NCBI GenBank assembly: GCA_026982375.1
Contig: JALSHF010000217.1
Coordinates: forward strand, 1 to 38,271
Length of the DNA: 38,271 nt
Direction of reading: 5' to 3'
Source: Emcibacter sp.
GTDB lineage: Bacteria; Pseudomonadota; Alphaproteobacteria; Sphingomonadales; Emcibacteraceae
The translations under genes and the position numbers were made by a program. This document shows positions 5,987-33,913 of this stretch, in pieces. Numbering within the stretch: position 1 is the stretch's first letter; each line of letters begins with the position of its first letter. The notes beneath the pieces are model-generated. The model was not told the DNA's origin. It did not search any database and saw only the letters and a program-made list of their open reading frames with translations.

Positions 5987-7837
5987 TTAATCAAGGCCAA
6001 ATTCATCTTCGTCAACCAGAAAGCTCTCAGCAGAAAAATCAGCCGAGCCATCATCCAGAATCGCAAATTCATCTAGCCTCTTTCGAATATCAGAAATTTT
6101 GGCCCCGGGGAATCGTTCCAGCAGGCTTTTGATAATGGGGTTGGTCATGAGGCGGGCTTTCAGCCGCCGATTATTTTCCAGATCCTGCTCACGCAGTGTG
6201 TCATCCCCCTGTTCGGTGGTAAGGGAAATGACCCAATGTCTATTGGTCCATTGTTTGAGCAGACTGATCATGCGTCCGGTCAGATCCTTTGGGGCCTGTT
6301 GTTTCAGGCGGATATCAAGGCGGCCCGGCGCAAAGCTTTCCAAATGGGCATTGTCATTAAGCTGAAAGGCGATGACGGCTTCATTATGGCGTTCAAAAAG
6401 AGCCACAAAATCTTCGAAACTATTCGGGTTTGCCTCATAATCCTGTTGAATATCCGGCAAAACATCAGGTAAAATATTTGAGGCGAGGACACGGGCCTGC
6501 CCATTGCTGCGGATCACATGAAAAGCTTTGGGGGCATTACCGTCATTGCCGTTTTGGGGCGCGTTTTGGGGCGCGTTTTGGGACGACTGCTGCGTTGGGT
6601 GGCCCCCAATATTCTGTCCCCCAGTATTTGGTGCGGGTGCTGCCGTGCCGCCAGTTTGCGGAGAATTTTTTAATTGTTTGATCATATCGCCCGGCGTGGG
6701 TAATTTGGCCGCATAGGTCATGCGCACAAGCACCATTTCGGCGGCGGCGAGCGGGGAGGGCGCCAAGCGAACCTCATCAAGTCCTTTCAGCAGCATTTGC
6801 CAGCTTCGGGTCAGGACAGGCATGCTCAGAGCGGCGGCCATCAATAGACCCTCTGTGCGTTCGGCTTCGGATGTGACGACATCTTCCCCGGCATCCGGCA
6901 CGACTTTCAGGCGGGTAAGCCAATGGGTTAATTCCAGCATATCGCTTAAAATAACTTCCGGATCCGCGCCGTGATCATACTGGTGACGCAATTGGGTAAG
7001 GGCCTCTGCCGTATCCCCCTTCATGATGACTTTATACAGGTCAAGAACCTGCGTGCGGTCGGCAAGGCCCAGCATATCGCGAACCTGCTGTTCGTCCACG
7101 TTACCGGCCCCGTGGGCAAAGGCCTGATCCAGCAGGCTCAAGCCATCGCGCACCGATCCTTCGGCGGCTCTGGAAATCATGGCAAGGGCGCTATCTTCTA
7201 TGTCACATTTTTCCAGCTTGGCGATTTTTCTGAAATGGCTGTTGAGCTGTTCGATGGAGATGCGTCTCAAGTCAAACCGCTGACACCGGCTCAGCACAGT
7301 AACCGGAACCTTGCGAATCTCCGTCGTGGCAAAGATGAATTTGACATGGGCCGGTGGCTCTTCCAGTGTTTTTAACAGCGCGTTAAAGGCATTGCGGGAC
7401 AGCATGTGGACTTCGTCAATGATATATATTTTGAAACGTGCCGAGACAGAGGCATAGCGAACCCCTTCGATAATCTCGCGGATGTCATCGACGCCTGTGC
7501 GGCTGGCGGCGTCCATTTCCATCACATCAACATGGCGGGATTCAGCGATGGATTTACAATTTTCACAGTCACCGCAGGGGGCGATGGTTGGCCCGCCTGT
7601 ACCGTCTTTGCCGATACAATTCAAGGCTTTGGCGATAATGCGGGCCGTGGTTGTTTTGCCGACACCGCGCACGCCGGTCAGGATAAAGGCATGGGCCAAA
7701 CGCCCGGTTTCAATGGCATTGGACAATGTGCGTACCATGGCGCCCTGTCCAATAAGTTCATCAAAATCAACCGGACGATATTTGCGCGCCAGAACGCGGT
7801 AGTTTTCATCTGCAGTGCTGTTGGGCGTTTCTGCCAT
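5987..7837 (-). CDS. dnaX: DNA polymerase III subunit gamma/tau
   Basis: YRVLARKYRPVDFDELIGQ, Walker A GVRGVGKTTTARIIAKALNC, zinc-binding cysteines, EVHMLSRNAFNALLKTLEEPP. Confidence 0.97.
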   Translation of the reverse strand: MAETPNSTADENYRVLARKYRPVDFDELIGQGAMVRTLSNAIETGRLAHAFILTGVRGVGKTTTARIIAKALNCIGKDGTGGPTIAPCGDCENCKSIAESRHVDVMEMDAASRTGVDDIREIIEGVRYASVSARFKIYIIDEVHMLSRNAFNALLKTLEEPPAHVKFIFATTEIRKVPVTVLSRCQRFDLRRISIEQLNSHFRKIAKLEKCDIEDSALAMISRAAEGSVRDGLSLLDQAFAHGAGNVDEQQVRDMLGLADRTQVLDLYKVIMKGDTAEALTQLRHQYDHGADPEVILSDMLELTHWLTRLKVVPDAGEDVVTSEAERTEGLLMAAALSMPVLTRSWQMLLKGLDEVRLAPSPLAAAEMVLVRMTYAAKLPTPGDMIKQLKNSPQTGGTAAPAPNTGGQNIGGHPTQQSSQNAPQNAPQNGNDGNAPKAFHVIRSNGQARVLASNILPDVLPDIQQDYEANPNSFEDFVALFERHNEAVIAFQLNDNAHLESFAPGRLDIRLKQQAPKDLTGRMISLLKQWTNRHWVISLTTEQGDDTLREQDLENNRRLKARLMTNPIIKSLLERFPGAKISDIRKRLDEFAILDDGSADFSAESFLVDEDEFGLD

Positions 7838-7989
7838 TGGGTTTTATATCCATGCTAAATCATTTGCGCCACTATAAAACTACGGGGACAAATTTGCCAG
7901 CAGTGAGTTGTTTTTTTGTGGAAAATAAAGCCAGAAAAGGGAATAGAGAAGGCAGTATATAGAGTAGAAAAATTTAAGTGAGAGATTGG

Positions 7990-8080
7990 ACAACCCAAAA
8001 TATCCCGTTACGGCTGCTCCCTTCCGGGCCTGACCGGATTGGCGGGTCTTTTGTCCGCCAACCTCTCGGGCGCATATATG
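7990..8080 (-). ncRNA. ffs: Small (4.5S-type) signal recognition particle RNA
   Basis: Reverse complement contains GGTCAGGCCCGGAAGGGAGCAGCCGTAACGG, the conserved SRP RNA apical domain, upstream of dnaX. Ends are approximate. Confidence 0.93.
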
Positions 8081-22201: not shown

Positions 22202-24289
22202 ATGCGACCGGAAATTTTATATCCATTCTTTGCCGATACCGTTAGCCTCCCCGGTGTGGGGGGGCGGATTGCGAGCCTGCTTGAAAAAATTCTGGGCCGC
22301 AAACTGGCGGATATATTCTGGCATTTACCGGTGGATATCATCGATCGCAGGGCCTGCCCGCCCTTGTCGGAAATTAAATATGATCAGATTGTCACGGTGA
22401 AGGTCACCATTGATAAACATGACGCCCCGCCGCGCGGTTCGCGCCGGCCCTACCGCGTATGGTGTCATGATGACAGCGGCAGTTTGCAATTGATTTTTTT
22501 TCATGCGAAAGGCGATTATATCCTGCGGCAACTGCCCGTGGGGGAAGAGCGCCTGATTAGCGGCAAGATCGAAGTTTTTAACGAACAGCTTCAGATGAGC
22601 CATCCCGACTATATGGTTTCGCCGGACAAACAGGATGATATTCCGGATGTGGAACCCGTCTATCCCTTAACGGCAGGCATCAGCGGTAAGGTCATGACCA
22701 AAATTGTGCGCGGGGCCTTGGAAAAGCTGGTGCCATTGCCGGAATGGCAGGATATATCCCTGCGGTCACGGGAAGGGTGGCCCCCATGGATGGCGGCGGT
22801 GAAGGCGGCGCATATGCCGCAAAGCCACGGGGATTTACAGATGAACAGCCCCGCCCGCGCGCGGCTCGCTTATGATGAGTTTCTGGCCAATCAATTGGCT
22901 CTTGAAATTATGCGCCGTCACAATCAAAAGAAAAAGGGCCGTTCTTTGAAGGTCCGGGGGGCGTTAAGGGCGCAGCTGCTGAAAAATTTACCCTATCAAC
23001 TGACCAACGCCCAGACCCGCAGCATCAGCGAGATAGAAAAGGATTTGGCAGCGCCCTATGCCATGATGCGCTTGCTGCAGGGTGATGTAGGCAGCGGCAA
23101 GACAGTTGTGGCTCTGCTGGCCATGCTGATCGCTGTGGAAAATAACGCCCAGGCCGCCATGATCGCCCCGACGGAAATTCTGGCGCGGCAACATTATGTC
23201 AGTCTGCTTGACATGACGGCGGGTATGGACATCAATATTGCCGTTCTGACAGGCCGCGACAAAGGCCGGGCGCGGAAGAAAATACTGGATGACTTGCAGT
23301 CGGGAGAAATTGATATTCTGGTCGGCACCCATGCCCTGTTTCAAAAGGATGTGATTTATCATGATCTGGTTTTTGCGGTGGTTGACGAACAGCATCGTTT
23401 TGGGGTTGAGCAGCGCATGGCTTTATCTGCTAAGGGGCGCGGTGCTATGGATATGCTGGCCATGACGGCGACGCCAATTCCGCGAACTTTAACCTTGACG
23501 GCTTACGGCGACATGGATGGCTCGCGCCTTGACGAAAAACCGCCGGGGCGAAAGCCTGTGGATACCAGAATAATCCCCCTGGGCCGGCTTGATGACGTGG
23601 TTCAGGGGATTAAGCGCGCGCTTGCGGGGGGCAACAGGGCTTTCTGGATTTGCCCTTTGGTTGAGGAATCCGAAGTTCTGGATCTGGCCGCCGCCGAACA
23701 AAGACACCGCCATCTTGAACAGATTTTCGGGCCAAGGGTCGGGCTGGTTCACGGCAAAATGAAGTCCAAGGAAAAAGATGACGTCATGACGCGTTTTATC
23801 TCTGGTGATATTGACATATTGGTGGCCACGACGGTGGTCGAGGTTGGCGTGAATGTGCCGGAAGCCACCATCATGATTATTGAACATGCCGAAAGATTTG
23901 GCCTGTCGCAGCTTCATCAGTTGCGGGGCCGGGTTGGGCGCGGGCTGGCGCAATCCACGTGCCTGTTGCTTTACGGTAATCTGAGCGGTACGGCGGCAAA
24001 GGCGCGGCTGGAGATCATGCGGGAAACCGAAGATGGTTTTCGGATTGCCGAAGAAGATTTGCGCCTGCGCGGTGCCGGTGAATTGCTGGGGACCCGCCAA
24101 AGCGGTATGCCGGATTTTAAAGTGGCAACCCTCGAAGAAAACGGGCAATTGATTGGCGTTGCGCGGGATGATGCGCGGCTCATCATGGAAAAGGACCCCG
24201 AGCTTAAAAGCGAACGGGGGCAGGCTTTAAGAATATTATTGTATCTGTTTGAGCGAGACGAAGGCGTCAAATATCTGACATCAGGCTGA
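22202..24289 (+). CDS. recG: ATP-dependent DNA helicase RecG
   Basis: GVGGRIASLLEKILGRKLADIFWHLPVDIIDRR, GDVGSGKTVVALLAML, VDEQHRFGVEQR, QLRGRVGRGLAQSTCLLLY. Confidence 0.97.
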   Translation: MRPEILYPFFADTVSLPGVGGRIASLLEKILGRKLADIFWHLPVDIIDRRACPPLSEIKYDQIVTVKVTIDKHDAPPRGSRRPYRVWCHDDSGSLQLIFFHAKGDYILRQLPVGEERLISGKIEVFNEQLQMSHPDYMVSPDKQDDIPDVEPVYPLTAGISGKVMTKIVRGALEKLVPLPEWQDISLRSREGWPPWMAAVKAAHMPQSHGDLQMNSPARARLAYDEFLANQLALEIMRRHNQKKKGRSLKVRGALRAQLLKNLPYQLTNAQTRSISEIEKDLAAPYAMMRLLQGDVGSGKTVVALLAMLIAVENNAQAAMIAPTEILARQHYVSLLDMTAGMDINIAVLTGRDKGRARKKILDDLQSGEIDILVGTHALFQKDVIYHDLVFAVVDEQHRFGVEQRMALSAKGRGAMDMLAMTATPIPRTLTLTAYGDMDGSRLDEKPPGRKPVDTRIIPLGRLDDVVQGIKRALAGGNRAFWICPLVEESEVLDLAAAEQRHRHLEQIFGPRVGLVHGKMKSKEKDDVMTRFISGDIDILVATTVVEVGVNVPEATIMIIEHAERFGLSQLHQLRGRVGRGLAQSTCLLLYGNLSGTAAKARLEIMRETEDGFRIAEEDLRLRGAGELLGTRQSGMPDFKVATLEENGQLIGVARDDARLIMEKDPELKSERGQALRILLYLFERDEGVKYLTSG

Positions 24290-24961
24290 GGGTTTATCGT
24301 CTTTTTTTGGCAGGCGGCTTGGGTCCACGAGGCCGGCGGAGATAACATATTTTGCCCCTTCATCCGGAGTCATATCCAGATAGATAACATCCTTTCTGGG
24401 GACGAATAACAGAAAGCCGGATGTGGGGTTTGGCGTTGTCGGCAGGAAAACATTGACCACATCATCCTGCATTTTTGCCTGTACTTCGCCGGTATTCTCA
24501 CCGGAAATAAAAGCAATGGCCCAGATGCCTTTGCGCGGATATTCCACCAGAACCACATCCTGAAAACTGACGGCATCTTCGGAGATGACCGTTTCAAAAA
24601 TCTGCTTCAATGTATTATAAACGCTTCTGATGATTGGCATACGGTTAAGTATTTTTTCGCCGACCCGGATCAGGCTTTTGCCAAGAAAATTAGCGGCAAG
24701 AAAGCCGAGTGTCGTTAACATGAGAAAAAGGAAAACCAAGCCAATTCCCGGCAGAGGGAAAGGCAGATAAGTTTCAGGATTATAAGCCACCGGAATTAAT
24801 GGTTTGATATTGCGGTCAATTAAATCAATGAAAGCAAGGGCTAGATAAATGGTGATGCCCACAGGAGAGGCGACGACAAGACCGGTCAGGAAATAAGTTC
24901 TCAAACGCTGAAGTATGGTTTTTTCCGGTTTAACTTTTAAGGGGTCAGTCATATATTCCAA
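24281..24961 (-). CDS. DUF502 family membrane protein
   Basis: LRTYFLTGLVVASPVGITIYLALAFIDLID, GIGLVFLFLMLTTLGFLAANFLGKSLI, RMPIIRSVYNTLKQIFETV; next to recG. Confidence 0.9.
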   Translation of the reverse strand: MEYMTDPLKVKPEKTILQRLRTYFLTGLVVASPVGITIYLALAFIDLIDRNIKPLIPVAYNPETYLPFPLPGIGLVFLFLMLTTLGFLAANFLGKSLIRVGEKILNRMPIIRSVYNTLKQIFETVISEDAVSFQDVVLVEYPRKGIWAIAFISGENTGEVQAKMQDDVVNVFLPTTPNPTSGFLLFVPRKDVIYLDMTPDEGAKYVISAGLVDPSRLPKKDDKPSA

Positions 24962-25036: not shown

Positions 25037-26182
25037 CTAGAGTGTTTTTGTATACATACGGTAGTTTTTATAACGCCAACAACCGATGGTTTCCAGCATT
25101 TTGGAAAGGCGGCTATTATCCTCTAAAACCCAAGACAGTTCCGCATGGGTGCAGCCGGAATTGGCGGCATGAATTCGGCATTCTTCGATGAGGGCAAAGG
25201 CCATTGCACCGCCAACGGCGGTATTTTGAAATTCTTTTCGAACGCCCATCAAGGGGACGCGAACCGTTTTATAGGTTGGCCTGATCTTAAGGCGCCATAA
25301 CAGCTTGAAAATACCGAAAGGAAACAGGCTTCCCTTTATATCGGTGATGATTTCGTTCAGATTGGGCAGCGCGACCATCATCGCCATGGGCACCCCGTCA
25401 TATTCTGCGATATAGGCGAAATCCTCACGGATCAGGAGCTTCATATCTTTTACGGTTTTATTCAGCTCGGCTTCGGTAAAGGGCAAAGCCATCCAATTGC
25501 CCGACCAAGCATCATTAAAAATTTCGAGAATGGTTTTTAAATCCTGCTCGTAATTTTTCATATTTATGGGGCGTAGTCTGATTTTGCCGTCTCTCATGCT
25601 GCGGGTGATCATTTTTTTGATGGTCGGCGGCAGAACATCTTGGTCAAACTTCAGGTAATAAGCCCATAAATCCTTAATTTTCTCCATGCCATAATTGGTC
25701 ATCAAGTCTTGATAATAGGGCAGAGCATGGTTCATCATCAAACTTGGCGGCGTATCAAAACCATCAACAAGCATGCCCGCTTCTTCATTAATAGACAGGC
25801 TGAAGGGGCCAATCACCTTGTCACGGCCATTCTGTTTTAACCATTGGAATGCCGTGTCCAGAAGGGCGCCGGCAGCTTGATCGTCGTTGATACATTCAAA
25901 AAACCCGAAATGCCCGATTTTTTCATGATATTTCTGTTCCACCAACTCATCAATCTGGGCGCTGATCCGGCCCACAACCCGCTCCCCTTTGCAGGCCAGC
26001 CAGAATTTTGCGCGGGCATGTTTAAAATAAGGGTTTTTTGACGGATCCAAGACTTCCATGCGTTCCAATATCAGGGGCGCAACCCAATTGGGGTCATCTT
26101 TATAAAGATCCCAGGGCAATTTGACGAAGCGTTTCAGGTCCTGTTTGTTTGTCACCTCTTTTATGGTGATGGCTGATGTCAT
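25037..26182 (-). CDS. GNAT-fold acyltransferase family protein; candidate bacterial ceramide synthase (bCerS-like)
   Basis: FVKLPWDLYKDDPNWVAPLILERMEVLDPSKNPYFKHARAKFWLA ... VVGRISAQID ... GPFSLSINEEAGMLVDGFDTPPSLMMNHALPYY. The family call is fairly secure. The ceramide synthase role is inferred from the nearby SPT cluster. Confidence 0.6.
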   Translation of the reverse strand: MTSAITIKEVTNKQDLKRFVKLPWDLYKDDPNWVAPLILERMEVLDPSKNPYFKHARAKFWLACKGERVVGRISAQIDELVEQKYHEKIGHFGFFECINDDQAAGALLDTAFQWLKQNGRDKVIGPFSLSINEEAGMLVDGFDTPPSLMMNHALPYYQDLMTNYGMEKIKDLWAYYLKFDQDVLPPTIKKMITRSMRDGKIRLRPINMKNYEQDLKTILEIFNDAWSGNWMALPFTEAELNKTVKDMKLLIREDFAYIAEYDGVPMAMMVALPNLNEIITDIKGSLFPFGIFKLLWRLKIRPTYKTVRVPLMGVRKEFQNTAVGGAMAFALIEECRIHAANSGCTHAELSWVLEDNSRLSKMLETIGCWRYKNYRMYTKTL

Positions 26183-26192
26183 GTGAGTATCC

Positions 26193-27320
26193 TTATTCTT
26201 CAGTCAGCAAAATAAAACTCAAGCCCATGAGGGCAAAAAGAAAAAACGGCAGCCAGGCCGCAATCATTGGCGGCACGGCACCATATTGGCCCAGGGCCAC
26301 AAACAGGTTGTTGATAACAAAATAGCCAAACCCCATAGCGCCGGTCAACGCAATCCGGCCGAAAAGATTGCCGCCCCGATGCAGCCCGAAAGCCGCAAGA
26401 CCCGCCAGCAAAGGCATGAGCAGCGTGCTGAGCGGCGCGACGAATTTCTGATATAGCATGGTTTCAAAACTTGCCGTGTTATGGCCTTCTTTTTTAAGTT
26501 GCGTAATGGCGGTGCGCAGTCTCTGGATGCTAACGCGATCCGGCTTAAGGGCCAAGGCGATAAAACGTTTTGGCGGGATATCCGTATCCCAGATAAGATT
26601 TTCCATGGGGGTGACTTTTAAAGTTTTGATGTCAAATTCCTTGACCTCGAACATTGTCCATTTATCATCGCGGAATACAGCAAAATCGGCCTTGATCAGC
26701 GAGGTGATTCGCTTGTCCTTGTCCCGAATATACTGGGTCACCTTATCCAGAAGTAAAATGCTGCCATTACGGCTGGCACTTTCCGCCTTGATCAAATTAT
26801 TCCCATCCGTGACCCATGTGTCATAAACCGTGTCAGGGGCAGGAGGCAGGTCGGCGGCATATTTATTCTCTTTCCAGTTCTTGAGCTCTGCCTTGGCGTG
26901 AACAGCCACGGTTTCCGTAAATACAAAATGCAGGCTGGCAATCAATAAAGACATGAGAAGAAGGGGCGTTATTATTCTAAAGGCTGACCAGCCGGACGCC
27001 TTCATAATGATAATTTCGCTGTGGATATTCAGGCCCGCGAGGCTAATGATAGCGGCCAAAAGAGCGACGAAGGGGGAAAAGAGCGACAATAATGTAGGTG
27101 TTCGAAGTGTCACATAATGCCACAGATCAGCATTGACCGCACCGTCCCCGGCCAATATGTCGTCAGATTCAGACAAGAGGTCGAGCATTTGCAATGTGGC
27201 TACCAGACCGATTAATATGATGATATATCGGCTGATGAAAAGCTTGGCCAGATAAACGTCCATACTACCAGGATTGAAAATTCCGCCGAGATGGCCCGAA
27301 AATTTGATAAATCGTTCCAT
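26193..27320 (-). CDS. lptG: LptG-type LPS/lipid export permease (YjgP/YjgQ family)
   Basis: YLAKLFISRYIIILIGLVATLQMLDLL; SEIIIMKASGWSAFRIITPLLL; C-terminal TM block. Second gene after lptF. Confidence 0.85.
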   Translation of the reverse strand: MERFIKFSGHLGGIFNPGSMDVYLAKLFISRYIIILIGLVATLQMLDLLSESDDILAGDGAVNADLWHYVTLRTPTLLSLFSPFVALLAAIISLAGLNIHSEIIIMKASGWSAFRIITPLLLMSLLIASLHFVFTETVAVHAKAELKNWKENKYAADLPPAPDTVYDTWVTDGNNLIKAESASRNGSILLLDKVTQYIRDKDKRITSLIKADFAVFRDDKWTMFEVKEFDIKTLKVTPMENLIWDTDIPPKRFIALALKPDRVSIQRLRTAITQLKKEGHNTASFETMLYQKFVAPLSTLLMPLLAGLAAFGLHRGGNLFGRIALTGAMGFGYFVINNLFVALGQYGAVPPMIAAWLPFFLFALMGLSFILLTEE

Positions 27321-27321
27321 A

Positions 27322-28497
27322 TTAACTTACCGTCCGTAATCGTCTGATGATACGGCTTATGGCTTCCACCATAACCTCATAGATAATTTCAATACGGCGC
27401 AGCGGTAATCCGCCTACTTTATAGGCCCCGATATAATATAATCGCGCCGTGAGCAGGATGAAAATCACTGTCGGCAGCCAGATCACCAGCCAAGGGGAAA
27501 CCCCGCCCATAGCCGAGAAATTAAGGCCAAATTCCAGAAGTTTATGATAAACGAGCAGAATGATTACCCCGACGGTGATGCCAAGTGCCCGCCCGGATCT
27601 TTTGGCAACCAAACCCAGCGGAATGGCCAGAAACGGCACGATTAGAATTGAAAGTGCGCGGGCAATACGGGAATGAAGTGTCGCTATGATCGCGGGATCA
27701 TCACTTCCCCGCGCCTGCCAAAGCTCTATGATGGTCATTTCTTTTGCCTCTTGCCCCCGGTCACGGAAACTGGCAAAATTTGGCACATCCATGGGCAGGT
27801 CATGCATATCAAAATTGACGATATTAGGCCGGCTTTGGGTTAAATCCAGATCTATAATCATGCCATTATATACCCTCAAGATCAGAAAGCGTTGATCGGG
27901 AGAGACAAAAAAGCTGCCTCTTTCCGCGCTGATGGATTGAATTCGGCCATTGGCTGATTCTTTTTGAGCAAATATATTGATGAGCTCTCGTCCCGAATCC
28001 CGGGATTCCTCGATACGCAATGTCAGGCCATCGCCAAGATTTGTAAATTCCCCGGCTTTGATGCTGGCCCCTAATGCGCCGCTTCGCACATCAAAGACCA
28101 GACCTTGATAGGCGTATCGGCTATAGGGCTGGATGAAGCCAACGACGATGACATTTACGATAAGTAAGAATATGGCGATATAGAAAGTTGGCACGGCCAG
28201 ACGATTAAGACTCATCCCCGTGGCCAGCAAGGCGTCAAGTTCGCTGTTCAGCGCAAGTTTTCGTACCGCGAGAAGGACGCCTAAAAACATGGATAACGGC
28301 AAGACCAGCGTCAGATATTGCGGCATAAGATTGCCCAGCATGCGCCAGACAATATCAATCGGGCCGCCCTGATTAATCACAAAGTCAAAAAGACTGAGCA
28401 TTTTTTCCAATAAAAGCAATACAGCAGATATGCCCAAAGTCACCAATAGGGGCACAATTGTTTCTCGCAATATATATTTATCAATTTTTTTTAGCAT
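27322..28497 (-). CDS. lptF: LptF-type LPS/lipid export permease (YjgP/YjgQ family)
   Basis: IDKYILRETIVPLLVTLGISAVLLLLEKMLSLFDFV; NSELDALLATGMSLNRLAVP; ISAERGSFF; RIARALSILIVPFLAIPLGLVAKRSGRALGI. Confidence 0.88.
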   Translation of the reverse strand: MLKKIDKYILRETIVPLLVTLGISAVLLLLEKMLSLFDFVINQGGPIDIVWRMLGNLMPQYLTLVLPLSMFLGVLLAVRKLALNSELDALLATGMSLNRLAVPTFYIAIFLLIVNVIVVGFIQPYSRYAYQGLVFDVRSGALGASIKAGEFTNLGDGLTLRIEESRDSGRELINIFAQKESANGRIQSISAERGSFFVSPDQRFLILRVYNGMIIDLDLTQSRPNIVNFDMHDLPMDVPNFASFRDRGQEAKEMTIIELWQARGSDDPAIIATLHSRIARALSILIVPFLAIPLGLVAKRSGRALGITVGVIILLVYHKLLEFGLNFSAMGGVSPWLVIWLPTVIFILLTARLYYIGAYKVGGLPLRRIEIIYEVMVEAISRIIRRLRTVS

Positions 28498-28639
28498 TAA
28501 GTCGCTTTTGGTCTGGATTTAGCCTAATTTCCAACTTATAGCTTTTGATCTGCCAAGAATATAGCTAAAAGGAAAAATAATTTTTGCTTAATGACCTGTT
28601 TTTATGGTTTTTATAGGGCCAAAATAGAAAAAATAACAG

Positions 28640-29608
28640 TTGGAATCCGCGTTGGGAATTATTGCCATATTAAGTAGCCCGTCTTCTTTTGCCCATAATG
28701 GTGAAATGGAAAAAATTCGCACCATTATTGCAAGCGGGTCGGGTATTTTTCATTACGAAGTGGAAAAACATAAAGATATCGCCGAAGCCCTGACAAGGTT
28801 TCAGCAGGCGAATGTTGAAGCCATTGTCATTCTTGGGGATCGGGCGCTGACATCGGCAACTTTTGAGCATATTGTTGAGAAAAACCTGCTCAAAGGGATG
28901 GATATTCCTTTGGCGATTCTACCGGCGGGCGATAATAATATTGTTGCGGAAAATTTTGGCGCAAATCACCCGGAACCTCATCTTGCTTTAAAAAGCCTGC
29001 TGGAGAAGCATCAAAAAGGTAACTTGCCCGTAACAGAAATTCCGCTGATCAAACTGGAAGGCGTCAGGGGTGTTGGTTATCTTTACGGACTTTTCTTTTG
29101 TGCCGGTGAAGTGATTAAACAAAAGAATCTCTTTAAACGAAAAATATACGGAAAAAATTTATTTAAAGGCTTTCGTAATTGGCTGAATATAGTAATCCTC
29201 ATTCAATCCGCCTATCGCCGTTCCATGGGGAAAAATAAACTTGAAGAGGCTATCCGCATTAATCGAAATCAGCGCGGCGCCGTTGTCGGGCATTTTTTCA
29301 TGCTCCTGATCACGACCCTGGACAAATCTTTTTGGGGCGTGTCGACCCCGCATAACAAACAGCAGGATAAGGCGCATTTCATTAGTGTAGAAAATACCCC
29401 AAAAGCGATTTTGGCAACGGGCAAGCTGATGCTTGGCGGAAAATATGATGGTATTGACCATGTGGGCAACATCATTGCGGAAATTCAGCATGCCAGAATA
29501 GTGCTTCAGACACCGTTTGTTCTTGATGGCAGCTATTATGAAACGGATGAGACAGGCGAATTATTTGTCACTGTAACAAATCGCCTGAAATTCATCAAAT
29601 TAAGCTAA
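28640..29608 (+). CDS. Diacylglycerol/sphingoid-kinase-fold protein with divergent nucleotide loop; candidate ceramide kinase
   Basis: AIVILGDRALTSATFEHIVEK and IPLAILPAGDNNIVAENFG align by eye with DAGK GGDGT and PLGTGNDFAR motifs; PFVLDGSYYE near the C-terminus; TTG start. Confidence 0.65.
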   Translation: MESALGIIAILSSPSSFAHNGEMEKIRTIIASGSGIFHYEVEKHKDIAEALTRFQQANVEAIVILGDRALTSATFEHIVEKNLLKGMDIPLAILPAGDNNIVAENFGANHPEPHLALKSLLEKHQKGNLPVTEIPLIKLEGVRGVGYLYGLFFCAGEVIKQKNLFKRKIYGKNLFKGFRNWLNIVILIQSAYRRSMGKNKLEEAIRINRNQRGAVVGHFFMLLITTLDKSFWGVSTPHNKQQDKAHFISVENTPKAILATGKLMLGGKYDGIDHVGNIIAEIQHARIVLQTPFVLDGSYYETDETGELFVTVTNRLKFIKLS

Positions 29609-30829
29609 AATTCGCTTGGGTATATCCTGCAACAGGCCAAGTTTTGTGCCGACCAGAATGAATTTTTCCAGCATAAAGTCGATCTGCTCGTGATTATGAG
29701 CCGCAGAAAGACTACAGCGCATCAGATTTAATTTCTTTGGGGTTGCGGGCGGCAGGGCAAGGTTAACATAAACCCCTTCCTTGATCATTTCGCCCCAAAA
29801 AGCAATCGCCGTATCTTGCTCAGCTATAATGATGGCTGCGATCGGGCTTTCGCCTGTGGTGCCCATGTCAAACCCGGCCTGACTTAATCCATTGTTGAGC
29901 CGTCTTGAGTTGCTGAGTAATTTAGCGCGAAGATTGCTGTTGGCAATTAATTCCAATGCCTTGGTCGCAGAGGCGACAACGGACGGCGGCAGGGATGCCG
30001 TAAATATATAAGGGCGGCATACAAGGCGCAAAGCTTCGAATTTCGGGTTGTTGGAGACGCAATAGCCGCCAATCGTTCCCACCGACTTGCTAAAGGTGCC
30101 GACGATAAAGTCTATTTGATCCTCAACGCCCTGTTCCTGCGCGACGCCGCGTCCGGTTTCGCCGAATACGCCGATTGAGTGGGCTTCGTCAACAAGGACA
30201 AACGCGTTATGGGCCTTGGATATCCGGGTGAGCTCTTTTAAGGGTGCCTGATCACCAAGCATGCTGTATACGCCTTCCAAGACGACCAGAATTCCGGCTT
30301 GGGGATCATTCTTTCGGATACGGGTAAGCTTTTTGTCCAGATTATCCGCATCATTATGTTTGAAGCGCACGACAGTGGCATTGCCCATGGCGCAGCCATC
30401 ATAGATGCTGGCGTGACTGTCCGCATCGATAACGACATAATCCTTTGGGCCCGCTAGGGTCGCAATGATGCCAAGATTGGCCTGATAACCCGTAGAAAAA
30501 ACGATAGCATGCTGCGTATCATAGAATTTTTTAAGGGTATCTTCCAATTTTTTATGGCTGTTATAGGTACCATTCAGCATGCGAGACCCCGTCGTGCCGG
30601 TGCCTAAAGTAAGCAGGGCCTCCTGGGCGGCATCCATGCATTCCTGATTAAACGTCATACCCATATAATTATTGGTGCCGGCAAGGATGGTTTTCCGGCC
30701 ATTGATAATGGCGGTTGTTGGTGACAATACCTGTTCCATACTAACGGTGAAGGGGTTTGCCGCGCCCTTTGGAAGACTGTTATAGTCATTCAGGATCGAG
30801 TCAAATTTTTCAAAAAGATCAAATGTCAT
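29600..30829 (-). CDS. spt: Serine palmitoyltransferase (alpha-oxoamine synthase)
   Basis: GTFSKSVGTIGGYCVSNNPKFEALRLVCRPYIFTASLPPSVVASA and VYVNLALPPATPKKLNLMRCSLSAAH closely resemble Sphingomonas-type SPT; PLP-lysine motif present. Confidence 0.92.
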   Translation of the reverse strand: MTFDLFEKFDSILNDYNSLPKGAANPFTVSMEQVLSPTTAIINGRKTILAGTNNYMGMTFNQECMDAAQEALLTLGTGTTGSRMLNGTYNSHKKLEDTLKKFYDTQHAIVFSTGYQANLGIIATLAGPKDYVVIDADSHASIYDGCAMGNATVVRFKHNDADNLDKKLTRIRKNDPQAGILVVLEGVYSMLGDQAPLKELTRISKAHNAFVLVDEAHSIGVFGETGRGVAQEQGVEDQIDFIVGTFSKSVGTIGGYCVSNNPKFEALRLVCRPYIFTASLPPSVVASATKALELIANSNLRAKLLSNSRRLNNGLSQAGFDMGTTGESPIAAIIIAEQDTAIAFWGEMIKEGVYVNLALPPATPKKLNLMRCSLSAAHNHEQIDFMLEKFILVGTKLGLLQDIPKRILA

Positions 30830-31077
30830 TGTTCACTCAATAATTGTTTTACGATTTCGGCAAATTGGCCAACTGTTTCCAGATCCGGAAGCATGTTGAG
30901 AGGAACGGTAATGTCAAATTCATCTTCAATTTCAGACAAAATATCCATCACGTTCAGGGAATCAAGCTCCAGGTCAACGCTGAATAGGCTGTCTTTGGTA
31001 ATGGGGATATTTTTTTTATTAAAGGGAGCAATGAGCGTACAAATCTGCTCAAAAATTTCATCAATAGTTTGTGTCAT
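30826..31077 (-). CDS. Acyl carrier protein, probably dedicated to SPT
   Basis: LELDSLNVMDILSEIEDEFDITVP (phosphopantetheine DSL motif); 4-bp overlap with spt. Confidence 0.9.
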   Translation of the reverse strand: MTQTIDEIFEQICTLIAPFNKKNIPITKDSLFSVDLELDSLNVMDILSEIEDEFDITVPLNMLPDLETVGQFAEIVKQLLSEQ

Positions 31078-31132
31078 TTACATTTCCATCTGGAATATTC
31101 TTTGAAAATTGCACCCTGATTACAGGTGAACT

Positions 31133-32113
31133 TCACATCAAATTATTGTCTCTATACCATTTCAGGGTTTTTTTAAACCCTTGTTTTAAGGTGGTCTCAG
31201 GTTTCCAATTTGTCAGTTTCATAACATGTGGCCCCCGACATATCCAGTCCGAGTGGCATAATTCGTTAACTTTTTCGGGTGTGATCATGGGAATATAGCC
31301 AAATAATGTCGAAAATAAGACATTAATATGACCAAAAAATCTCAATATAAATCGGGGCAGAACGATATTAAAAGCATTTATATTCAATATGTTAGCAGCG
31401 GTTTCATACATTTCCTGATTGGAATATCCGTCTTTTTTTCCATCATCAACGTCAAGAATCTGGTCATGGCAGGCCTGATTTTCGCTTACCGCAATCAAGG
31501 CACGGGCCAGATCAGGCGCATAAATCCAAGAGGCTCTGTTATCCGCGCTGCCGGGCAGAATGGACATTCTATAAGAGACGGCCTTGAATATTTTCAGTGT
31601 CTCCTTGTCCTCTGGCCCATAAACCCCGGGAGGACGCAGGATGGTCCAGGGCATATCTCCCGCATGTTCGGTCAATATTTCTTCGCCTTTGCGTTTACTT
31701 TCAGCATATGCGGATAATTTTCTTTCCCGTGCGGCCAGTGATGACAATAAAATGAAATGAGGTTTTGCATGAGGTTTAGTTGCGGATTGGTGAATGACAT
31801 CCACCAGCGTTTTAACGGCGTGACTATTGATATGGTTAAAGTCATGTTTGGATCTGGCCTTGACCAGACCGGCAAGATGAAAAACAACATCGGTATTTTT
31901 GACGAGTTCCCCTAGGGCTTGCCGATTATCAAGATCACCTGATATCCAGTTGATTTTTTCTTTTTCCGGCTTTTCTTTTTTCGGCTTTTCTTTTTCCGGG
32001 CGGGGCCTGCGGGTCAGGGCATTGACCTGAAATCCCTGGGCGATGAGCTCATTTATTAAATGTTTGCCGACGAACCCTGTGGCTCCTGTCACTGCTGCAA
32101 TTTTTGTCATCAT
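31133..32113 (-). CDS. NAD-dependent epimerase/dehydratase (extended SDR); candidate CerR ceramide reductase
   Basis: AAVTGATGFVGKHLINELIAQGFQV Rossmann motif, DVVFHLAGLVKA, YAESKRKGEEIL (YxxxK), in the spt operon. SDR call is firm; CerR role is inferred from context. Confidence 0.75.
   Translation of the reverse strand: MMTKIAAVTGATGFVGKHLINELIAQGFQVNALTRRPRPEKEKPKKEKPEKEKINWISGDLDNRQALGELVKNTDVVFHLAGLVKARSKHDFNHINSHAVKTLVDVIHQSATKPHAKPHFILLSSLAARERKLSAYAESKRKGEEILTEHAGDMPWTILRPPGVYGPEDKETLKIFKAVSYRMSILPGSADNRASWIYAPDLARALIAVSENQACHDQILDVDDGKKDGYSNQEMYETAANILNINAFNIVLPRFILRFFGHINVLFSTLFGYIPMITPEKVNELCHSDWICRGPHVMKLTNWKPETTLKQGFKKTLKWYRDNNLM
31956..32000. repeat. 15-bp in-frame tandem repeat, 3 copies, inside the CerR-like gene
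   Basis: ttttctttttccggc / ttttcttttttcggc / ttttctttttccggg; encodes (P)EKEKPKKEKPEKEK. Confidence 0.9.
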
Positions 32114-32173
32114 AAGAAATGGTAATCCCTTTGATCAAGAGATTACCGCCATAAGTGTTTGTTCGTCAATGGT

Positions 32174-33913
32174 TTAGGTGAATAGTTCACCGGCCAGATA
32201 TTGCTGGCGGGCTTTCACGCGGCTTAATTTCCCCGATGAAGTACGCGGCAGGGAGCGCGGGGGAATCAAGGCAACGATCGGGGAAATCCCGATTAAGGCA
32301 TGAACTGTTTCCTTGATTCTATTTTCTATCGCGGCGCGTTCGGCCTCATCACGGGTGCGGCATTGTACCAGAATGGCAGGGGTTTCCTGATCCTGCTCAC
32401 CGGGAATGGAGACGGCGGCAATATCACCAGCGCGCAGATCATCCAACTGCTCTACAGCCCATTCGATGTCTTGGGGCCAATGGTTTTTGCCGTTGATAAT
32501 AATCAAATCCTTGATCCGGCCAATGATATAGAGGGAGCCTTCTTTCATGTAGCCCATATCGCCGGTATCGAGCCAGCCATCCTTGGACAGGCAAAGGTCT
32601 GTGGCCTCTTGATCCTGAAAATATCCTGCCATAACACTGGCACCGCGTACGCAGACCCGGCCAATTTGATATTCCCCGAGGTCACCATTATTATCATCCC
32701 GAATTTCAAGTTCATATTCAGGAATAGGAACGCCGCAGTTCACGACGCCGCGATAATTGGCACCACTGCCGTTTACCTTGAGCCCTTTTAGGGATTTTTC
32801 TTCACCGGTTAAGGCCTTCTCATCCACCAGATCAATTTCAAAGCCGGTATTCAATGGGGCGAAGCTAACGGCCAGCGTACATTCCGCAAGGCCATAGCTG
32901 GGCAGGAAAGTCGTGCTTCTGAAACCCACATCTTTGAAGGTTTCCTGAAATTGTGTCAAAACGTCAGGGCGGATCATATCACCGCCAATTCCCGCGACAC
33001 GCCAACTTGATAAATCCAGTTCGGCTATGGTGGTCGGGCTCACGCGGCGGGCGCAAATATCATAGCCGAAAGTCGGACTATAGGCGAGGGTGCCTTTGTT
33101 GCGTGAAATCAATTTGAGCCATTGTAAAGGCCGTCGGGCAAAGGCCTCGGTCGCCAAATAATCTGTTGTGACCTGATTGGCAATCGGTGACAGCAAAGTG
33201 CCGACCAGACCCATATCATGATAAAAAGGCAGCCAGGATACAACCCGGTCATTTTCATTCAGATCCATGCCGACATAGCCAATACCATAACTGTTTGCCA
33301 TTAATGATTTATGGGTAACGGAAACGCCGTGGGGGAAACGTGTGCTGCCGGATGAATATTGCAAATAGGCCAGATCTTCTGGTTTTGCGACATGCAGCGG
33401 AATAAATTTAATGTCTTTTGCCGAGGATTGTTCTTCGAATGTGGTCGAGGTTCCGACGAACTTCATTTTCAGGCCCGAGGTGGCTTCATCCAGTAAAGGC
33501 AGCATATAGGAGGCGGAAATAGCCACGGATGCGCCGCAGCTTTTCATTTGCTGATTAAGCTGGCTGGTATATCCCTCACGCCCCCCGAATGATGTGGGTA
33601 AAGGTAACGGGACGGGCAATAGTCCGGCATACTGGCAGCCGATAAAATAACAGACAAATTCATCACTTGTTTCGGCGATCAAGGCCACGCGGGAGCCTTT
33701 TTTAATGCCGAAATGGATGAAGCGCCGGCCAATTTCCTGCGCCTTCTTGCATATTTCGGCAAAAGTGATGCTGGTTTCAAGCTCGCCTCTGGGAGAATAA
33801 AAATTTAAGCCCCGAATGCCGCCTGCGGCATATTCAATAGCTTCCAAAAGGGTGCCGAAATCAGCGAACCTGCGGGGAAGAGTAGGGTCTTGTGTTGGTA
33901 AAGCTTTGCGCAT
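32174..33913 (-). CDS. Fatty acyl-AMP ligase / acyl-CoA synthetase family protein, probably loading the adjacent ACP
   Basis: DLAYLQYSSGSTRFPHGVSVTHKSLMAN, VSWLPFYHDMGLVGTLLSPI, YGLAECTLAVSF, GWLDTGDMGYM, IINGKNHWPQDIEW, PRTSSGKLSRVKARQQYLAG. Confidence 0.9.
   Translation of the reverse strand: MRKALPTQDPTLPRRFADFGTLLEAIEYAAGGIRGLNFYSPRGELETSITFAEICKKAQEIGRRFIHFGIKKGSRVALIAETSDEFVCYFIGCQYAGLLPVPLPLPTSFGGREGYTSQLNQQMKSCGASVAISASYMLPLLDEATSGLKMKFVGTSTTFEEQSSAKDIKFIPLHVAKPEDLAYLQYSSGSTRFPHGVSVTHKSLMANSYGIGYVGMDLNENDRVVSWLPFYHDMGLVGTLLSPIANQVTTDYLATEAFARRPLQWLKLISRNKGTLAYSPTFGYDICARRVSPTTIAELDLSSWRVAGIGGDMIRPDVLTQFQETFKDVGFRSTTFLPSYGLAECTLAVSFAPLNTGFEIDLVDEKALTGEEKSLKGLKVNGSGANYRGVVNCGVPIPEYELEIRDDNNGDLGEYQIGRVCVRGASVMAGYFQDQEATDLCLSKDGWLDTGDMGYMKEGSLYIIGRIKDLIIINGKNHWPQDIEWAVEQLDDLRAGDIAAVSIPGEQDQETPAILVQCRTRDEAERAAIENRIKETVHALIGISPIVALIPPRSLPRTSSGKLSRVKARQQYLAGELFT

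Follow-up and report, generated by a model that had tools for sequence, protein, structure and literature searches.

A putative compact sphingolipid synthesis-and-export cluster with an apparently dead kinase in an alphaproteobacterium lacking LpxC and LpxB

We analyzed a 38,271-nucleotide stretch of DNA from Emcibacter sp. (assembly GCA_026982375.1, contig JALSHF010000217.1; hereafter, the window), in which the genes between positions 25037 and 33913 likely constitute a compact cluster for the synthesis and export of sphingolipids in an alphaproteobacterium free of lipopolysaccharide (LPS), with a dead kinase and no phosphoglycerate headgroup. Five of the genes encode a predicted Caulobacter-type ceramide pathway. 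The lptF and lptG genes, which share an operon with the ceramide synthase gene, group with sphingolipid-linked permeases in phylogenetic reconstructions and are the only such pair in a genome where LpxC and LpxB were not found. Between the two sets lies a homologue of the ceramide kinase CpgB from which the catalytic motifs have been lost. A preliminary description of this DNA had proposed the ceramide pathway, which is upheld here as part of a wider cluster; it listed neither the lptF-lptG-cerS operon, nor the absence of LpxC and LpxB with LptD kept, nor the degenerate CpgB-like kinase.

Results

Ceramide synthesis genes

Nine open reading frames (ORFs) were called in and around the 25037-33913 region. 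The features of the cluster, with the evidence for each, were:

25037-26182, minus strand: cerS, putative bacterial ceramide synthase, a tandem GNAT N-acyltransferase, third in the lptF-lptG-cerS operon (Pfam, AlphaFold2 [AF2] fold, synteny)
26193-27320, minus strand: lptG, sphingolipid type; its NCBIfam name is LPS export permease LptG (TIGR04408, tree)
27322-28497, minus strand: lptF, sphingolipid type (TIGR04407, tree)
28498-28639: 142-bp intergenic region from which the lptF operon and the kinase-like gene diverge, a presumed shared promoter region (ORF coordinates, conserved arrangement)
28640-29608, plus strand: CpgB-like ceramide/diacylglycerol kinase homologue with catalytic motifs lost, a putative pseudokinase (fold, synteny, motifs)
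29600-30829, minus strand: spt, serine palmitoyltransferase (SPT) (NF047599, PDB ranking, residues)
30826-31077, minus strand: acpR, dedicated acyl carrier protein (ACP) with DSL serine (Pfam PP-binding, translation, synteny)
31133-32113, minus strand: cerR, extended short-chain dehydrogenase/reductase (SDR), putative ceramide (3-keto) reductase (Pfam Epimerase, NDUFA9-like PDB matches, synteny)
32174-33913, minus strand: aasR, fatty acyl-AMP ligase or acyl-ACP synthetase (NF006624, synteny)

These calls agreed with the places and coordinates given earlier for the GNAT, SPT, ACP, SDR, and ligase genes, all five of which lie on one strand, and the coordinates of acpR and spt (30826-31077 versus 29600-30829) bore out the 4-bp overlap that had been described. 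The kinase-like gene is convergent with spt, and their 3′ tails overlap by 9 bp. Synteny showed that the divergent lptF/kinase arrangement is maintained within the order and that acp adjoins spt across the class. Since the gene order of the cluster is conserved across the order's families and also in alphaproteobacterial families outside it, chance clustering is excluded. Between aasR and cerR, at 32121-32147 on the minus strand, is a hairpin, GGTAATCTCTTGATCAAAGGGATTACC, which is terminator-like and without a clean T run.

The SPT scored well above the cut-off of the NCBIfam serine palmitoyltransferase model NF047599 (611.4 bits, cut-off 500) and fell below those for bioF (324.8 versus 426), glycine C-acetyltransferase (315 and 291 versus 460 and 493), and ALAS. 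Its best PDB matches were likewise serine palmitoyltransferases (2x8u, 502 bits; 2jg2, 475 bits), which we take to be Sphingomonas enzymes, compared with 216 bits for KBL, 172 for BioF, and 196 for cysteate acyltransferase. Alignment to solved SPTs revealed that the Lys of GTFSKS, the His of DADSHASIYDG, the Asp of VDEAHS, and the Arg of the PPATP...RCS loop are unchanged, and these conserved residues include the pyridoxal phosphate lysine and substrate residues. A BioF or KBL identity for this alpha-oxoamine synthase, the alternative that the preliminary description had raised, is ruled out by the model cut-offs and the PDB ranking.

AcpR matched Pfam PP-binding (40.1 bits, cut-off 20.8) and has the DSL serine in its translation, while the aasR product matched the fatty acyl-AMP ligase model NF006624 (801 bits, cut-off 600). 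The latter had been described as a fatty acyl-AMP/CoA ligase, a family assignment that stands, although the protein is better read as an AasR-type acyl-ACP synthetase. Models and synteny thus place a dedicated ACP and an acyl-AMP ligase beside spt, and their predicted pairing is an assignment by family and place. CerR matched Pfam Epimerase (98.6 bits), contains the motifs GATGFVG and YAESK, and has PDB relatives that include the NDUFA9 subunits of complex I, a relationship published for CerR (PMC11087976). For CerS, which matched Pfam GNAT (26.7 bits, cut-off 20.7), a PDB sequence search returned nothing, and the match to its best PDB folds, tandem GNATs, came through fold comparison alone (AF2 model, predicted local distance difference test [pLDDT] 93). 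Both CerR and CerS were identified by family, fold, and place, rather than by direct comparison with the Caulobacter protein sequences. These assignments support the encoding of all five functions of a Caulobacter-type pathway (AasR, CerR, AcpR, SPT, and tandem-GNAT CerS), matching the classes named in the preliminary description; ceramide would be its product.

The CerS-like GNAT family spans many phyla, including sequences from Cloacimonadota, Zixibacteria, Anaerolineae, Myxococcus, and Rhodopirellula (L081-L150), and a GNAT alone is therefore no proof of ceramide synthesis.

LPS genes and LptF/LptG copy number

No LpxC was found in the window genome, which is 2.63 Mb in size and 97.5% complete. 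It has one LptF (TIGR04407, 258 bits, cut-off 230) and one LptG (TIGR04408, 273.8 bits, cut-off 240), both in this cluster. Among 101 genomes of the order, which also contains Sphingomonas-type genomes, LpxC and LpxB were each found in none (0/101), LptD in 99, CerS in 98, and SPT at E < 1e-100 in 97, while LptF/LptG were present in 94, with exactly two copies in 80. In the LpxC, LpxB, and LptD searches, the Escherichia coli and Caulobacter controls were positive as expected.

At the level of the class (289 genomes), SPT was over the cut-off in 39, comprising 15 genomes with LpxC and 24 without. At least four LptF/LptG genes were present in 14 of the 15 with LpxC. Of the 24 without, 21 had two or three, three had none, and four copies occurred in none (0). 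LpxC-containing genomes without SPT nearly always had two copies; two such genomes (G022 and G246) had four, and an SPT fragment just below the cut-off was present in G246. The SPT-carrying families comprised 13 that were LpxC-negative and 10 that were LpxC-positive. The exceptions to the copy-number pattern are G079, G066, G280, and an incomplete genome, G071.

In this class sample, LpxC-negative alphaproteobacteria of normal genome size were mostly SPT-positive, and many genomes with neither LpxC nor SPT were small and reduced. Two loci, G066:C1:1500000-1519900 (L204) and G280:C1:261000-280900 (L205), may come from sphingolipid producers that use a different route of export; G186, the third member of their family, keeps two LptF/LptG genes.

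Two types of LptF and LptG

Phylogenetic reconstructions of 58 LptF and 54 LptG proteins each showed a split, supported at 100%, that separates LPS-type from sphingolipid-type sequences (branch length of the LptF split, 1.73). Every sequence from LPS-only genomes was placed on the LPS-type side, as were the other sets from genomes with both LPS and SPT, while the sphingolipid-type side took in all pairs linked to spt or cerS and all those read from LPS-free genomes. Several spt-unlinked sets in genomes with both LPS and SPT were typed after their scores had been seen and are not independent evidence; the LptF groups defined in advance (28 LPS-free, 4 spt-linked, and 13 LPS-only) separate perfectly by themselves. 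The window LptF and LptG were both inside the sphingolipid-type side, together with spt/cerS-linked pairs from LPS-positive genomes, so that by tree they are assigned to the sphingolipid-type permeases despite passing models named for LPS export. That they are ordinary LPS genes located beside the cluster by chance is ruled out by these trees, the lack of LpxC and LpxB, and their being the only pair in the genome.

A degenerate kinase between spt and lptF

The kinase-like protein scored 20.6 bits against Pfam DAGK_cat, below the cut-off of 23.6, as compared with 46.8 for an intact relative. Its AF2 model (pLDDT 90) nevertheless matched diacylglycerol kinase and sphingosine kinase folds (E as low as 7.6e-16), and by synteny the gene sits at the place of CpgB in the cluster. 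GGDGT was absent from 17 sequences of the family (the window and 16 relatives) and present in 27/27 others, including one from the same family (G295). In the 17 degenerate sequences it is replaced by GDRAL, GDKAL, or GGQAL/I (ILGDRALTSA in the window), the G-K/R/M-T-N motif is altered, and DGE has become DGS, DGC, or DGR, with losses that differ between two sub-clades. The reconstruction recovered a single motif loss (100/100 support, stem length 1.36). Within the genus, ratios of nonsynonymous to synonymous substitution (dN/dS) of 0.07-0.20 indicate purifying selection. We consider the protein to be apparently catalytically dead in most of this family. A decaying pseudogene is ruled out by the long open frames in relatives and the dN/dS values, and a sequencing or frame error by the sharing of the loss among 17 sequences from different assemblies.

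In Caulobacter, the two genes required for ceramide phosphoglycerate are CpgB and CpgC, which are needed for the first phosphoglycerate (PMC12275187). CpgB is the ceramide kinase, CCNA_01218, and GGDG is conserved in CpgB and human CERK (PMC10331486). The gene beside the kinase, the equation of which with CpgC rests on position, was missing from the cluster of every genome read that has the degenerate kinase, the rest of each genome not having been searched. With an apparently dead CpgB-like kinase and no CpgC-position gene in the cluster, the organism probably does not make the Caulobacter phosphoglycerate headgroup. Two more members of the order's cluster, the DUF2141 gene and the Wzx/MatE-like flippase, were also missing from the cluster in these genomes, and the fatty-acid-hydroxylase-like gene was gone too, except for a match in G301. 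The kinase/CpgC co-loss is one evolutionary event, which makes for a consistent story and not a statistical association.

Where present, the CpgC-position gene (L175:11086-12078; L176:10852-11829) has the motif YGSCLRTG and no Pfam match, and was beside the kinase in more than 20 genomes. The DUF2141 protein (L175:9448-10023) is regular in the order's sphingolipid cluster, where its gene separates lptF from the kinase gene; clusters that have lost the kinase motifs lack it.

Genomic setting

The closest named relatives by CerS were marine metagenome-assembled genomes labelled Emcibacter sp. or Alphaproteobacteria, at 80-91% identity, and the organism is therefore presumably Emcibacter-like. 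Next to cerS, an ORF at 24281-24961 on the minus strand encodes a DUF502 protein. Elsewhere in the window is a bacterial small signal recognition particle RNA (RF00169, 59.6 bits; 7974-8070, minus strand), just past a dnaX-like gene (5987-7837).

Discussion

In the mechanism that we propose, AasR would charge AcpR with a fatty acid, SPT would join acyl-AcpR and serine to form 3-ketosphinganine, and N-acylation by CerS and reduction by CerR would give dihydroceramide, with the last two steps ordered as proposed for Caulobacter. The LptF-LptG permease, encoded in one operon with cerS, would deliver a lipid built on ceramide, instead of LPS, to the outer membrane, its partners being the retained LptD and, presumably, LptB and LptC; ceramide is thus probably exported by sphingolipid-type Lpt. 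The ceramide would probably be capped otherwise than with phosphoglycerate, for example glycosylated by putative genes elsewhere. The retained pseudokinase may, speculatively, bind ceramide or regulate the pathway. A more elaborate version, which we regard as tentative and rather doubtful, is that in LPS-free alphaproteobacteria the Lpt bridge is given over to sphingolipid export and that, in this family, the dead kinase has been retained as an adaptor or regulator that binds ceramide, either handing unphosphorylated ceramide to LptF/LptG or restraining SPT, with a surface headgroup that is not phosphoglycerate.

Several points weigh against a synthesis-and-export cluster of this kind. The Fisher's exact values for LptF/LptG copies by LpxC among SPT genomes (p ~1e-9) and for SPT by LpxC (8e-13) are optimistic because of shared ancestry in the SPT, LpxC, and Lpt patterns. 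One genome (G079) has SPT and LpxC, yet only two LptF/LptG genes, and two others (G066 and G280) have SPT and CerS with no LpxC and no LptF/LptG matches, which implies either a different route of export or undetected genes. Finally, the loss of kinase and CpgC is known at the cluster only, as no search of the window genome beyond it was made for another ceramide kinase or CpgC.

The same two LptF/LptG-free genomes, and the NCBIfam names of the window pair as LPS export permeases, would fit a different account, in which LptF/LptG serve another surface glycolipid or polymer, are beside cerS by descent only, and sphingolipids take another route. We consider this unlikely, given the absence of LpxC and LpxB throughout the order (0/101 genomes), the placement of the window pair apart from the LptF/LptG of LPS sets, and a copy number that tracks the number of lipid classes. 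Slightly less probable still is an ordinary Caulobacter-type phosphosphingolipid cluster in which a kinase of divergent nucleotide site is still active and ceramide phosphoglycerate is formed. The CpgB fold and position are indeed kept and selection on the gene is strong, but three nucleotide/metal-site motifs were lost together, differently in two sub-clades, DAGK_cat is below its cut-off where an intact relative reaches 46.8 bits, and the cluster has lost its CpgC-position gene. Cassettes of an alpha-oxoamine synthase, ACP, SDR, and ligase also exist in other contexts, and together with the GNAT relatives in many phyla this could favor an acyl product other than ceramide, such as a capsule lipid anchor or a sulfonolipid-like lipid. 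However, the SPT-specific model and PDB ranking, including 502 bits for SPT against 196 for cysteate acyltransferase, and the adjacency of CerS to the cassette in nearly all loci of the order that were read, make such a product highly improbable.

A 2024 study stated that no flippase or transporter of bacterial sphingolipids had been identified (PMC11087976). The pattern of copy numbers and the division of the trees into two types sharpen the Lpt2 proposal (PMC11324152) into a prediction across 23 families, and a genome without LpxC and LpxB that has the sphingolipid-type pair only is a natural test bed for delivery of sphingolipids to the surface. The conservation of the pseudokinase suggests that it may act in lipid metabolism without catalysis. 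Genomes of this kind risk misannotation as LPS producers, since their lptF/lptG score above the cut-offs of models for LPS export. Our literature searches returned no experiment on sphingolipid transport by LptF2/LptG2 and nothing relevant on the combination of LpxC absence with sphingolipids or on bacterial ceramide pseudokinases.

Comparison with known systems

The C. crescentus ceramide/CPG2 cluster (CC_1168-CC_1152) comprises aasR, cerR, acpR, spt, cpgC, cpgB, cpgA, lptF2, lptG2, and cerS. Therein, aasR, cerR, acpR, and spt are CC_1165-CC_1162 and cerS is CC_1154, while CC_1161-CC_1158, CC_1153, and CC_1152 are required for phosphosphingolipids (PMC11324152). CC_1156 and CC_1155 are second copies of LptF and LptG, for which phosphosphingolipid transport was suggested without experiment (PMC11324152). 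The window has in common with this cluster the five ceramide genes, the spt-acp-cerR-aasR order, lptF-lptG-cerS on one strand, and a kinase-family gene between spt and lptF. Its cluster differs in lacking the CpgC-position gene, a CDP-alcohol transferase, and a CofC/MobA-like gene, and in the loss of the kinase motifs. Moreover, the window genome is without LpxC and LpxB and has a single lptFG pair, whereas Caulobacter has LPS and a second-copy lptFG. Relative to CpgB, the kinase-like protein retains family, fold, and cluster place, but GGDG is absent and DGE has become DGS.

Sphingomonas/Sphingobium-type genomes of the same order resemble the window genome in lacking LpxC and LpxB and in having SPT, CerS, LptD, and one sphingolipid-type LptF/LptG pair; unlike the window, their loci have a looser gene order and the kinase, where present, has an intact GGDGT (L101, L110, and L182). 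With the LptB2FGC-LptA-LptDE system of LPS transport, the window genome shares the LptF, LptG, and LptD families, but its LptF and LptG belong to a distinct subfamily, in a genome without the lipid A genes LpxC and LpxB. The known phosphosphingolipid cluster thus occurs in the window in a variant form.

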